Positions 16,884 to 51,039 of a stretch of 64,000 nucleotides of DNA are shown here, in pieces. The DNA is from Paradevosia shaoguanensis. Its GTDB lineage: Bacteria > Pseudomonadota > Alphaproteobacteria > Rhizobiales > Devosiaceae. How positions within the stretch are numbered: position 1 is the first letter of the stretch; the number at the start of each line of letters is the position of its first letter. A model generated the notes under the pieces. It made no database searches and was not told the DNA's origin. It saw only the letters and a program-made list of their open reading frames with translations. Location of the stretch: positions 248,001 through 312,000 of the forward strand of contig NZ_CP068983.1 of NCBI RefSeq assembly GCF_016801025.1, in the 5' to 3' direction. The translations under genes were made by a program, and so were the position numbers.

Positions 16884-17933
16884 GTGACCGATCAACCGGT
16901 TGAGGACATGGGTAAACGAGCAACGATGATCGACGTGGCGGAACGCGCCAGCGTTTCGCAGGCGACGGTGTCGCTCGTGCTCAATGGCGTTGCCAATGCG
17001 CGTGTGTCGGAATCGACCCGCCAGCGCATTTTCGAGGCGGCAGAGGCGCTCGGCTATCGCAAGGGGCCGCGCCATTCCGTTCCGGAAAACGCCTCCCCCG
17101 TTATCGGCCTTTTGCTCGATGAGGTGAGCACCACGCCTTTTGCCATGCCCTTCATCGAAGGCGCGCGCGACGAAGCCGCGCTGCAGGATGTGCTGCTGGC
17201 GACTTTCTGTACGCGCGGCGACCCCAAGCTGGAAAACGCTGCGCTGGAAATGCTGGCGCAGCAGAAGGCCATCGGGGTGATCTATGCGACGCTGGTCACC
17301 ACCCAGCTCGCCGATATGCCCAAGCGGCTCGGCAACCTGCCTACGGTTTTGCTCAATTGCTATGAGAAGCGTGCGCGTTACCCGTCCGTCGTTCCCGGTG
17401 ACGTGGCCGGCGGGCACGCTGCTACGGAGGCGCTGCTGAAGGTCGGGCACCGGCGGATCGCGCACCTCGCGGGTGAGCAGTGGATCGAGGCAGCACGGGC
17501 ACGCGCGCAGGGTTACCGCCAGGCCTTGACGACCTGGGATGTCGCCGTCGATCCCGACCTGCTGGTTACGGGGGGCTGGACGGTCAATGGCGGGCGCGAG
17601 CTCACCGCAAAGCTGCTCGAACTCGACAACCCGCCGACGGCGATCTTCTGTTTCAACGACCGTATGGCGATCGGCGCCTATGATGCGGTTCGGGCAAAGG
17701 GACTGCGAGTGCCAGACGATATTTCCATCGTCGGGTTCGACGACGAAGACCTCGCCTCCTATGCTCAGCCACCGCTTTCGACGGTGATCCTGCCGCACGA
17801 TGAAATGGCTCGCTGGGCCGTGGGCGCGTTGCTCGATCGACGGGCCGGCGACACCAGCGCTCGCAAGATCAAGATGGAATGCCCGCTAGTGCCGCGCGGC
17901 TCGATCGCACCGCCAGCGAAGACTCGCAGCTAG
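16884..17933 (+). CDS. LacI-family transcriptional regulator
   Basis: Repressor probably governing the divergent glycosidase and transporter genes. It has an N-terminal LacI helix-turn-helix, MIDVAERASVSQATVSLVLN, then NARVSESTRQRIFEAAEALG with the hinge. A periplasmic-binding-protein-like sensor domain follows (VIGLLLDEVSTTPFAMPFIE, HRRIAHLAGEQW, PDDISIVGFDDEDLASYAQP). From the GTG at 16884 it has 349 residues. AGGAAGG lies about 9 bases upstream of that codon, while the in-frame ATG at 16908 lacks good spacing, so either start is possible. The stop codon abuts a miniature repeat element. Confidence 0.9.
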   Translation: MTDQPVEDMGKRATMIDVAERASVSQATVSLVLNGVANARVSESTRQRIFEAAEALGYRKGPRHSVPENASPVIGLLLDEVSTTPFAMPFIEGARDEAALQDVLLATFCTRGDPKLENAALEMLAQQKAIGVIYATLVTTQLADMPKRLGNLPTVLLNCYEKRARYPSVVPGDVAGGHAATEALLKVGHRRIAHLAGEQWIEAARARAQGYRQALTTWDVAVDPDLLVTGGWTVNGGRELTAKLLELDNPPTAIFCFNDRMAIGAYDAVRAKGLRVPDDISIVGFDDEDLASYAQPPLSTVILPHDEMARWAVGALLDRRAGDTSARKIKMECPLVPRGSIAPPAKTRS

Positions 17934-18173
17934 GTCGGTACTCAATAAGTCCCGGCGCCCCCAGAGCGCTTATCTCCCCATCCGACAATTCCAACGGAAG
18001 CGCTGTCCGTCGGCCACGCCACAACTACTGGACTTCCCCGGCCGCAGAGCCGGGGCCCACGGATTCCTCCACTCGAGTGGAGGGTGGCAATGGGCCCCGG
18101 ATCAAGTCCGGGGAAGTCCGGTGGATGGGGCGACCATCGCAACCTCATCTACGGGTGCAATTGAGTACGGACC
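17933..18173. mobile_element. 241-bp miniature inverted-repeat element, copy 1
   Basis: This non-coding element fills most of the 310-bp gap between the LacI gene and nadC. Its ends are GGTCGGTACTCAAT and ATTGAGTACGGACC, near-perfect terminal inverted repeats. Inside lies a palindromic core with arms CTTCCCCGG and CCGGGGAAG. A second copy of identical length is at 49218-49458, differing at scattered bases. It encodes no protein, so it fits a MITE or a compound REP-type element mobilised in trans. The remaining 70 bp before nadC hold only its ribosome site, GGGAGGCGGG. Confidence 0.85.
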
Positions 18174-18243
18174 CAAGGCCGCGACGTCTTGTCAGTACGC
18201 GCGTGCGCGCGTAAACCGACGCCAACGTGCCGGGAGGCGGGAC

Positions 18244-19116
18244 ATGCATATCATCACTTCACCGGTGGCTGAACTGCCCCGACCGTTGGTCGACAAGGCA
18301 GTCCTCTCCGCGCTCGAGGAAGACCTGGGATTGGCAGGCGATCTGACCAGCCAGGCAACGCTTCCTCCACAGGCGACAGCGGCAGCAGTGCTCTCGGTGC
18401 GCGAAGCCGGCGTGATCGCGGGTCTTGCCCTGCCCGCTGCGGCGTTCCGGCTGATCGGCGACGGCCTCACTTTCGAAGCGTCGGTGGCGGATGGCGACAC
18501 AGTAGAAGCCGGTACCGTGGTGGCGCGCGTATGGGGCAATGCCCGACTGATGATGATGGCCGAGCGCGTAGCGCTCAATTTCATCAACCACCTCAGCGGC
18601 ATCGCAACTCTCACACGCATCTATGCCCGTGAGCTGGAAGGCACCAGCACGCGCATCTGCGACACGCGCAAGACCACGCCGGGGCTGCGCGCTTTCGAGA
18701 AATACGCCGTGCGCTGCGGCGGGGGCGTCAACCACCGCTATGCGCTCGATGACGCGATACTCATCAAGGACAACCATATCGCCGTCGCCGGTGGTGTGAC
18801 GGCGGCATTCAAGGCTGCGCGCGCCTTTGCGGGACATCTGGTCGCCATCGAGATCGAAGTCGAAACGCTCGAGCAGTTGGAGGAGGCTTTGGCAGCTGGC
18901 GCCAAAATCGTTCTCCTCGACAACATGGACGATGCGACATTGTGCAAGGCAGTCGAGCTCACGGCAGGCCGCGCAACGCTGGAGGCTTCCGGCGGCGTCA
19001 AGCTGGAGCGCCTCAAGGCGATTGCGGCGACCGGTGTCGACTATATTTCGACCAGCCAGATTACCATGTCTGCCCGCCCACTCGATCTCGGGCTCGATAT
19101 CGAGATCGGCCACTGA
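18244..19116 (+). CDS. nadC: Nicotinate-nucleotide pyrophosphorylase (quinolinate phosphoribosyltransferase)
   Basis: Converts quinolinate and PRPP to nicotinate mononucleotide, CO2 and pyrophosphate in de novo NAD synthesis. The 290 residues match the family length. Signatures are ALEEDLGLAGDLTSQATLP, ALNFINHLSGIATLTR, RICDTRKTTPGLRAFEKYAV with CGGGVNHR, and LDDAILIKDNHIA. The frame is open 41 codons upstream into the repeat element, but the ATG at 18244 has GGGAGGCGGG ahead of it and begins the alignable protein. Followed after 5 bp by the cysQ-like gene, so probably co-transcribed. Confidence 0.95.
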   Translation: MHIITSPVAELPRPLVDKAVLSALEEDLGLAGDLTSQATLPPQATAAAVLSVREAGVIAGLALPAAAFRLIGDGLTFEASVADGDTVEAGTVVARVWGNARLMMMAERVALNFINHLSGIATLTRIYARELEGTSTRICDTRKTTPGLRAFEKYAVRCGGGVNHRYALDDAILIKDNHIAVAGGVTAAFKAARAFAGHLVAIEIEVETLEQLEEALAAGAKIVLLDNMDDATLCKAVELTAGRATLEASGGVKLERLKAIAATGVDYISTSQITMSARPLDLGLDIEIGH

Positions 19117-48897: not shown

Positions 48898-49217
48898 GAG
48901 GCGCGTGAAACATTGTTTCACGGGGTTTCGGCGGTTTTTTGCGAAGTTTTGGAGGAGTCAGCGTCGTTACGGCGTTGATTTTTATTGGTGTTTCGAAACG
49001 ACGCGACGGCAAATCGTTAAATTTTGACTCAATTTCGGGGGAATTTTGACGATGTTTGCGGGGTTTTGCGGCGGTTTGGAGTGAAATCGGGGGGATGTTT
49101 TGAGGGCGGCGACTCTCGGGACGATGGCTGGGTTATGAGTGGGCGGCGGTAGTTTAGCCCGGCGGGCCCGGGGGGTGGATAAGTTTTTGGGGTGGCCAGA
49201 AGGTGGGAAATTCCTAG
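48898..49217. other. Gene-free region of skewed composition with GTTTC/GAAAC palindromes
   Basis: I see no gene here. The plus strand is rich in G and T runs, unlike its surroundings, and contains two related blocks, GGGGTTTCGGCGGTTT near 48922 and GGGGTTTTGCGGCGGTTT near 49061. GTGAAACA-T-TGTTTCAC at 48905-48921 is a perfect 8-bp dyad just after moaA, and GTTTCGAAAC lies at 48990-48999. Short open frames are low-complexity and rejected. The first dyad could serve as a moaA terminator. Confidence 0.5.
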
Positions 49218-49458
49218 GGTTCGTACTCAATAAGTCCCGGCACCCCAGAGCGCTTATTTCCCCATCCGACAGATGCCAACGGAAGCGCTGTCCGTCTGCC
49301 GCGCCACAACCACTGAACTTCCCCGGCCGCAGAGCCGGGGCCCACGGATATCTCCACTCGGGTGGAGGGTGGCAATGGGCCCCGGATCAAGTCCGGGGAA
49401 GTTCGGTGGGTGGGGTGGCCATCGCAACCTCATCTACCGGTGCAACTGAGTACGGACC
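49218..49458. mobile_element. 241-bp miniature inverted-repeat element, copy 2
   Basis: Same length and organisation as 17933-18173: left end GGTTCGTACTCAAT, right end ACTGAGTACGGACC, and the internal palindromic core with GCCGGGGCCCACGG and CCCCGGATCAAGTCCGGGG. It differs by scattered substitutions only. It lies next to a broken IS110 element, a position suggesting an insertion hot spot. No coding capacity. Confidence 0.85.
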
Positions 49459-49693
49459 CTGGGCCATGGGCCGGAGATGGTGGCTGGGGCGAGGGCGTTG
49501 GAACCGCGGGGCTTGCTGGGCGGGCCATGGGCCCCTGTGTAATTGAGCTGTGTCATATTGGGTACGGGCGGGAGACCGTTGGGCCCCAGGTTTAAAGACC
49601 GAGAGCCGGCACGGGTCCCCGCCCGCTTTGACAAACACCTGAACAGTTGCGCGAGGCCGCTCGAGACGGACCTCGGATCACAGGGACAGGCCC
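49459..49693 (+). other. Left non-coding flank of the IS110 element, possible bridge-RNA region
   Basis: This 235-bp stretch lies between the miniature element and the transposase start. From about 49570 on it is compactly structured: GAGAGCCGGC, GGGTCCCCGCCC, and CCGCTCGAGACGG then GACCTCGG. IS110-group elements encode their bridge RNA in this position, upstream of the recombinase gene. I cannot place the element's left end or fold the RNA, so this is a position-based inference. Confidence 0.35.
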
Positions 49694-50625
49694 ATGACCC
49701 TATCACCGACCTGGATTGGAATCGACGTTTCGAAAGCCTGGCTGGATATCGCCTCTTCCGGCGGGGAGGGCGTGCAGCGGATCGCCAACACCATGGACGC
49801 CATCGCCGCATTCGCCGCCACGCTGGAGCGGGAGGCACTCTCGTGGTGCTGGAGGCGAGCGGGGTTTACGACAAGAGCTTGCGCGCCGGACTGGCGCTGG
49901 CCGGGATCGGCCATGTCCGGGTCAATCCGCAGCGGGCCCGTGACTTTGCGCGGGCCAGCGGCCGGCTCGCCAAGACCGATGCGCTCGATGCGGCCATGCT
50001 TGCCGAAATGGGCCGGGCCCTGCGCCTCGTGGCCGACCCGCTGCCCGAGGCCGGACGCGAGCGGCTCGGCCTGCTCAGCCGCCGCCGCGACCAGTTGGTG
50101 GCCATGCGCACCCAGGAAAAGCAGCGCCGGATCGAGATGACCGATCCCTTCATCGGCGCCGACCTGGACCGGCACATGGCCGGCCTCAACCAGGCCATCG
50201 CCGCCATCGAGGTCGAAATCCAGAACCAGATCGGCAGCGATGCCGCCCTGGCACAGGACCAGGCCCTGATCCGCTCGGTGCCCGGCATCGGCCCGGTCAC
50301 CGCCTCTGTCCTGGCCGCCCTGATGCCCGAACTGGGCCGGCGCTCGGGCAAGCAGATCGCCACCCTGGCCGGGTTGGCCCCGCTCAACAACGATAGCGGC
50401 CTACGGCGCGGACAGCGCTCCATCCGCGGTGGCCGCCGCCGCGTCCGTCAGGCCCTTTACATGGCCGCCGTCGCATCCTTGCGAACACAATCGCCTCTCA
50501 ACGCTTTCTACCACCGCCTGCGCCAGGCCGGAAAACCACCCAAGCCCGCCCTCGTCGCCCTCGCCAGAAAGCTCCTCGTCACCATCAACGCCATGATGAA
50601 AACCCGAACACGCTTCGCAACCTGA
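49694..50625 (+). pseudogene. IS110-family transposase, frameshifted
   Basis: DEDD recombinase of an IS110-type insertion sequence. The N-terminus MTLSPTWIGIDVSKAWLDIA (first catalytic Asp) reads in one frame until about 49830. The rest reads in another frame: TLVVLEASGVYDKSLRAGLA (catalytic Glu), KTDALDAAMLAEMG (catalytic Asp pair), then the C-terminal Tnp20 domain RSVPGIGPVTASVLAALMPE, GLAPLNNDSGLRRGQRSIRG, ending MMKTRTRFAT. A single-base loss near 49826-49835 (in CTGGAGCGGGAGGC) explains the switch. An intact frame upstream of the second part is not transposase-like. A programmed frameshift or sequencing error is possible but less likely. Confidence 0.85.
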
Positions 50626-50728
50626 ATTACAGTTGCCGGCTCTGCGGCTGGGGAAGATGGAGTTTGTGGCCGGGGAAGATGAGGATGGGGTGGTGGGGTG
50701 AGGTCGGATAGTGCCTCAGTTTCCTTGT

Positions 50729-50829: not shown

Positions 50830-50880
50830 CGATGGGGCGGGATCTCGCGCTGAATAGAATTCCGCGCCACCCTCTCGATC

Positions 50881-50963
50881 TTCCCCGGCGGAGAGCCGGG
50901 GCCTACGGGTATCTCCACTCGGGTGGAGGGGGGCAATAGGCCCCGGATCAAGTCCGGGGAAGT
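50881..50963. repeat. Isolated palindromic core of the 241-bp element
   Basis: From TTCCCCGG to CCGGGGAAGT, this 83-bp sequence matches the interior of both 241-bp elements (including CTCCACTCGGGTGGAGG) but lacks their terminal repeats. The core therefore exists as an independent REP-like unit. The remaining gap to 51039 holds only G-rich sequence with no gene. Confidence 0.8.
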
Positions 50964-51039
50964 GCGGTGGTGGGGATGGTGAGGGGGATGACGGGGACGG
51001 TGGTTGGCGTGGTGGTTGCCTGGTCCCTGCCCGGTAGTA

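Follow-up and report, generated by a model that had tools for sequence, protein, structure and literature searches.

Two 241-bp non-coding repeats of Paradevosia shaoguanensis very probably belong to a MITE family that joins the ends of an IS5-family insertion sequence (IS) to a palindromic core from the host, that moved in trans, that targets CTAG and that is kept at gene ends. Both repeats lie in the window, by which we mean the whole 64,000-nucleotide stretch analyzed (positions 248,001 to 312,000 of contig NZ_CP068983.1), and the initial annotation had interpreted them as a MITE mobilized in trans. That interpretation is supported by dispersed copies, by empty sites and by an IS5-family transposase element with matching ends; the partner IS, the captured hairpin core and the placement at stop codons are additions to it.

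The mechanism that we propose is as follows. The ends of the element would derive from an IS5-family IS (17 bp on the left and about 20-34 bp on the right), and the interior would consist of about 78 bp of further sequence together with a host palindromic repeat as core. Recognition of these ends and insertion at CTAG would have been the work, in trans, of a DDE transposase of the IS5 family (most likely its IS427 type), with a target duplication of no less than TA and no more than CTAG. Copies would then persist mainly where the CTAG ends a gene, because the duplication rebuilds TAG on both sides and cuts no promoter or reading frame. The family presumably spread after the lineage had split from the other genus member compared here and is now decaying.

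Copies, ends and target site

The two window copies align with 92.4% identity over 237 columns (E 4e-95), and their coordinates, lengths and differing flanks are as first described (Table 1). The internal palindrome is likewise present, with positions 85-200 of copy 1 matching their own reverse complement at 75%. Copy 1 is bounded by GGTCGGTACTCAAT...ATTGAGTACGGACC and copy 2 by GGTTCGTACTCAAT...ACTGAGTACGGACC. The TA that had been observed before both left ends is there as part of CTAG, and the G at 17933 is common to this CTAG and to copy 1, of which it is the first base as originally bounded. Neither copy has an intact CTAG on both sides (CTAG/CAAG for copy 1 and CTAG/CTGG for copy 2). Open reading frames of 111, 331 and 135 amino acids run across the window copies mechanically. 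An Rfam scan of the window at gathering thresholds matched nothing, and neither did a distant-mode search of a plasmid collection.

Table 1. Coordinates of the two window copies, their neighbors and the IS5-family element. Positions are those of the window except where a locus is named.
Feature	Position	Strand	Remark
Upstream LacI-like gene	16926..17933	+	Assigned by eye; its TAG stop lies inside CTAG
CTAG target copy, left of copy 1	17930..17933		Includes the LacI-like gene's TAG stop (17931-17933)
MITE copy 1, 241 bp	17933..18173	+	
Copy 1 left end	17933..17949	+	14-bp terminal repeat plus AAG
Copy 1 palindromic (REP-like) core	18028..18132		
Copy 1 right arm and right terminal repeat	18139..18173	+	Consensus matches the 3' end of IS5-family relatives
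Copy 1 right flank CAAG	18174..18177		Read as decayed CTAG
Downstream nadC-like gene	18244..19116	+	Assigned by eye; ATG at 18244, gene finder's start at 18286
CTAG, left of copy 2	49214..49217		
MITE copy 2, 241 bp	49218..49458	+	Away from any stop codon
Copy 2 palindromic core	49313..49417		
Copy 2 right flank CTGG	49459..49462		Read as decayed CTAG
Free palindromic core	50862..50979	+	Lacks the arms and ends of the MITE; 88.5% to copy 2
IS5-family element	L037 1335-2176	minus	The two frames of relatives are fused; frame break near the N-terminus

Using copy 1 as a query against the source genome (G000; 4.63 Mb in one contig), we found at least 41 distinct places including copy 1 itself. Because the best 40 of 223 first-look candidates were scored, the copy number of the family is a lower bound; 37 other rows represent the palindrome matching itself on the opposite strand. 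Altogether the genome holds at least 49 dispersed copies, 44 of which are bounded with both ends. The other five are four one-ended copies (L036, L043, L044 and L048) and, at L031, a half copy; L013 is the same place as L031. The terminal repeat occurs at 84 places in the genome with at most one mismatch. Best local matches to the consensus average 94.5% identity across the 44 both-ended copies, and the consensus terminal repeat is GGTCCGTACTCAAT on both sides. MITEs are defined as small (about 30-300 bp), multicopy elements (PMC4133298), and the both-ended copies are 158-255 bp long. No transposase gene lies inside an element of at most 255 bp, whose core is a palindrome that is also found free.

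The equal length of the window copies, which had been emphasized, is real in that both measure 241 bp, but it is partly coincidence, since the alignment takes one gap in each copy and lengths vary across the both-ended copies. A specially fixed element length is rejected, as 6 of those 44 copies measure exactly 241 bp (22 fall within 240-244 bp). At L031 (3032-3362), the right flank and the inner part of a full copy are tandemly repeated 227 bp on, which yields the half MITE there, flanked on the right just as the full copy is.

Short direct target repeats flank the family. An exact CTAG stands outside the left end in 33/44 copies, outside the right end in 30/44, on both sides in 21/44 and on at least one side in 42/44; CTAG is rare in the window, at 27 sites versus 89 expected from shuffles. 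Among the 88 ends, single-base departures from CTAG fall nine times on the outer base, once on the inner base and eight times on the middle bases (outer versus inner base, p 0.02). That departures lie more often on the outer than on the inner base leans toward a duplication of TA, with one extra G belonging to each element end, over a duplication of CTAG.

Empty sites and the probable partner insertion sequence

Empty sites were sought in one other genome of the genus (G001), which is 78-90% identical to G000 in matched stretches. G001 contains the palindromic core without the MITE, and it gave no match to the MITE ends or, with three mismatches allowed, to the left-arm pattern. The locus of copy 1 measures 49 bp in G001 and 283 bp in G000, and this site is too diverged for a base-by-base reading of the target. 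For 12 further copies, the flanks were joined with one target copy left and searched in G001. Eight of these queries span the junction (L004, L005, L014, L017, L019, L020, L024 and L051), and a single CTAG is found at the junction in seven of them, L051 having none; at L019 it comes with a one-base gap, and the L019 copy has lost a G. The remaining queries matched by the right flank alone (L010 and L026) or gave no match in G001 (L034 and L045), so that 5 of the 12 loci, with L051, count against as lacking a single-CTAG empty site. The initial annotation had named two patterns that would contradict a MITE, namely copies in syntenic positions only without empty sites and boundaries that lie off the terminal repeats, and we found neither.

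The distribution of the family is narrow. Among 136 genomes of the taxonomic family, the MITE ends are present in G000 alone, and so is the left arm among 397 genomes drawn from the larger order, for which at most two candidates were scored per genome.

One match to the terminal repeat, at position 2,883,662, has no MITE body attached; it marks the left end of a minus-strand IS of 842 bp, bounded by GGTCCGTACTCAATAAG...GGTGCAATTGAGTCCGGATC. Its protein is an IS5-family DDE transposase (NF033580, 221.6 bits against a cut-off of 110), with Pfam DUF4096 and DDE_Tnp_1 also above their cut-offs; solved structures gave no match to it at E 0.01 or less. The family consensus of the 17-bp left end is the left end of this IS. 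The right end of the IS differs from that of the MITE at two bases, and its right flank is CAGG instead of CTAG. The transposase is single-copy, with no second match of the protein in G000. Since the IS is a single copy with a broken frame and a CAGG right flank, no working partner is seen today.

Relatives of this IS in other bacteria carry the same terminal features, with the left end the same as in the MITE and the right end near-identical. A scan found 34 loci of close relatives, and ends were examined at 21 of them, several of which are copies within one organism. Left ends with at most one mismatch and CTAG outside were found at 16/21 loci, the exceptions being L091 (cut by the contig end), L095, L106, L108 and L110 (two mismatches); the corresponding right ends were found at 18/21, the exceptions being L093, L108 (two mismatches) and L110 (TTAG). 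Furthermore, the right arm of the MITE matches the 3' ends of L095 (34 columns, 85%, E 1e-5), of L094 (29 columns, 86%, E 3e-5) and of the G000 IS (18 columns, 94%, E 0.004), all in matching orientation. Because the subterminal bases differ between left and right and each set recurs at its proper end, we read the MITE as derived from an IS of this kind. In the left arm, some 78 bp between the end and the core gave no IS match above chance level. The IS in G000 has one fused frame in its 842 bp and L092, a complete relative from Caulobacter, has two overlapping frames; from this size and these frames the source IS probably belongs to the IS427 group, for which two overlapping ORFs with a frameshift and a length of about 830-870 bp are reported (PMC3281130). 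Taken together, these sequence comparisons suggest that the MITE was moved in trans by an IS of the IS5-family type.

Stop codons and the palindromic core

Using gene ends from a home-made finder trained on G000, we found that 37 of the 44 both-ended copies have a TAG stop no more than one base away, six of them on both sides. The flanking genes are convergent around 32 of 43 copies and tandem around 11, with no copy between divergent genes (L047, without a predicted left neighbor, is not in this count). As a baseline, 20 evenly spaced 20-kb stretches (400 kb) were taken, which contain 121 non-coding CTAG sites, 49 of them at stop codons and 23 in divergent gaps. The copies depart from this baseline both in their excess at stop codons (p 5e-7) and in their absence from divergent sites (p 7e-4). 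Being palindromic and including TAG, a single CTAG can provide the stop for two genes, one per strand; once it is duplicated, both genes retain their TAG with the element between them, as follows from the sequence itself. We infer that intact stops are the reason these copies survived, and copies at stop codons probably do little harm. When stops and convergent gaps alone are counted as harmless, the copies no longer differ from the baseline (37/41 versus 49/62, p 0.18), so selection against insertions elsewhere suffices to explain the placement.

The core of the element, positions 96-200 of copy 1, also occurs free. A 22-base core probe with one mismatch allowed matches 88 places in G000, 41 of them inside MITE copies, and it is present in 3 of 9 other genomes searched in the taxonomic family. 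Twenty-two free cores (L165-L184) lie in convergent gaps (12), in tandem gaps (9) and within a predicted gene (1), with none in a divergent gap, and free cores are possibly a REP-like family of their own. At L039 (2062-2890), a lone MITE-like terminal repeat without arms stands beside three palindromic cores within about 600 bp.

An IS110-like element lies at 49528-50656 of the window and at L176 (387-1514), L182 (297-1428) and L142 (8019-9154), the latter three being 98%, 98% and 79% identical. At three of these places (the window, L176 and L182) its end adjoins fragments of the palindromic repeat, which gives the appearance of an insertion into the hairpin, and the N-terminal part of the window copy lies in another frame. 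We rejected the IS110-like gene beside copy 2 as the mobilizer of the MITE, because none of its copies has ends in common with the MITE and they adjoin the palindromic repeat in its free form.

A rival reading is that the element, whatever its origin, is now a working 3'-end structure under positive selection between convergent genes, with a two-way terminator, an RNA-end protector or an insulator as candidate roles. The orientation counts and the proximity to stop codons given above are in keeping with this, and convergent genes are mildly over-represented when stop-codon sites alone are considered (28/37 copies versus 26/49 baseline sites, p 0.04). Variability points the same way: when 31 copies with lengths of 228-246 bp are compared with their consensus, the two core stems diverge by 2.1% and 2.7%, as against 5.9% for the left arm and 8.1% for the core loop. 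However, the right arm lies outside the core hairpin and is equally invariant (2.8%), and gene conversion with free hairpins could also lower the variability of the stems. Additional evidence speaks against a 3'-end role. The comparison of harmless sites leaves no need for an extra force, a search of copy 1 for a terminator-like site (a stem followed by a T run) found none, and either MITE end may face the stop (right in 18 copies, left in 13 and both in 6), with no preferred orientation. Conserved RNA structure is also unsupported, with 2 cells showing compensatory changes versus 109 broken among 2422. We consider a 3'-end role unlikely. We hold in equally low expectation its fullest form, a mobile 3'-end insulator kept by selection, in which a chimeric MITE would enter a stop shared by two convergent genes that overlap, restore the stop of each and, with its strong hairpin now lying between them, leave the formerly overlapping tail-to-tail genes apart.

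The placement of 37 of the 44 copies at stops could instead have been set at insertion, by a preference of the IS5-family transposase for stops or gene 3' ends, and one reported insertion of an IS427-group element lies immediately upstream of a TAA and duplicated TA (PMC4133298). Full-length IS relatives argue against such a preference: at 6 of 19 loci the flank coincides with the end of a coding-like frame, which is below the MITE value (p 8e-5), in a test that used the gene model of another species and a cut-off set post hoc and that could examine just one end in 10 of the 19. We regard an insertion preference as quite improbable. A spread of the whole 241-bp unit as a REP/BIME-like host repeat, with no transposon behind it, is hardly credible, since REP/BIME repeats are palindromes without IS ends or target duplication and the unit has terminal repeats equal to those of IS5-family elements, CTAG flanks and single-CTAG empty sites, even though its core palindrome occurs free in G000 and in three of the nine other genomes, where free cores lack the MITE ends.

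We favor a MITE with IS5-family ends that is retained at gene ends, presumably by selection against harmful insertions. Its terminal repeats diverge from the consensus by 5.5% and 5.1% in the same 31 copies, and we read the overall divergence pattern as that of an old burst; for the low variability of the stems and right arm, gene conversion, constraint and uneven mutation are candidate causes. The family shows a simple route by which a target site can make a transposon nearly harmless and, with sites occupied in one species and empty in another of the same genus, it offers natural experiments on whether hairpins between convergent genes matter.

Comparison with known systems

Titles and passages of the open-licence literature yielded no description of this MITE family or of its placement at stop codons, and literature searches on MITEs with Alphaproteobacteria and CTAG, or with Devosia, found nothing. 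In the available passages on related elements (PMC3281130, PMC4133298, PMC9241763, PMC2267715, PMC9208149, PMC5493358, PMC2680597 and PMC3119063), direct repeats of 2 or 4 bp are given for the IS427 group, and a mycobacterial IS5-group element is flanked by CTAG repeats.

A close parallel in kind is MiniMdi3 of Methylobacterium, which is related to ISMdi3 and is likewise small, present in several copies and without a transposase; an IS with the same ends resides in its own genome, as for the MITE here. MiniMdi3 differs in that it belongs to another IS and is about 400 bp long, and placement at stop codons goes unmentioned in the available text (PMC2680597). For the partner IS, the likeness is to ISPha1 of Paracoccus, an IS427-group element of 842 bp with 13/12-bp inverted repeats, 4-bp direct repeats and one fused ORF (PMC3281130). 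The G000 IS also measures 842 bp with a fused frame, a likeness drawn from the published description, and relatives such as L092 have the two overlapping frames reported for the group (PMC3281130). The MITE itself differs from ISPha1 in having no transposase.

IS5 of E. coli targets Y-T-A-R, with CTAG the commonest site (15/24 in the published table; PMC5493358), and CTAG, TTAG and CTAA are all seen here too. It belongs to another group of the family, and the departures in our elements are confined to one side, so a TA duplication suits the MITE better. The Bru-RS repeats of Brucella are also an alphaproteobacterial family of palindromic intergenic repeats, and at 103-105 bp they differ in length; we set them beside the MITE by description (PMC2267715). 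The free core resembles REP/BIME sequences in being a dispersed extragenic palindrome, whereas the whole MITE unit differs from them by its IS ends and CTAG flanks (PMC2817692). Set beside these systems, the repeats are a real MITE family, ordinary in kind and most likely moved by an IS5-family transposase, and what goes beyond the ordinary is an unusually clear stop-codon niche together with a captured palindromic core.
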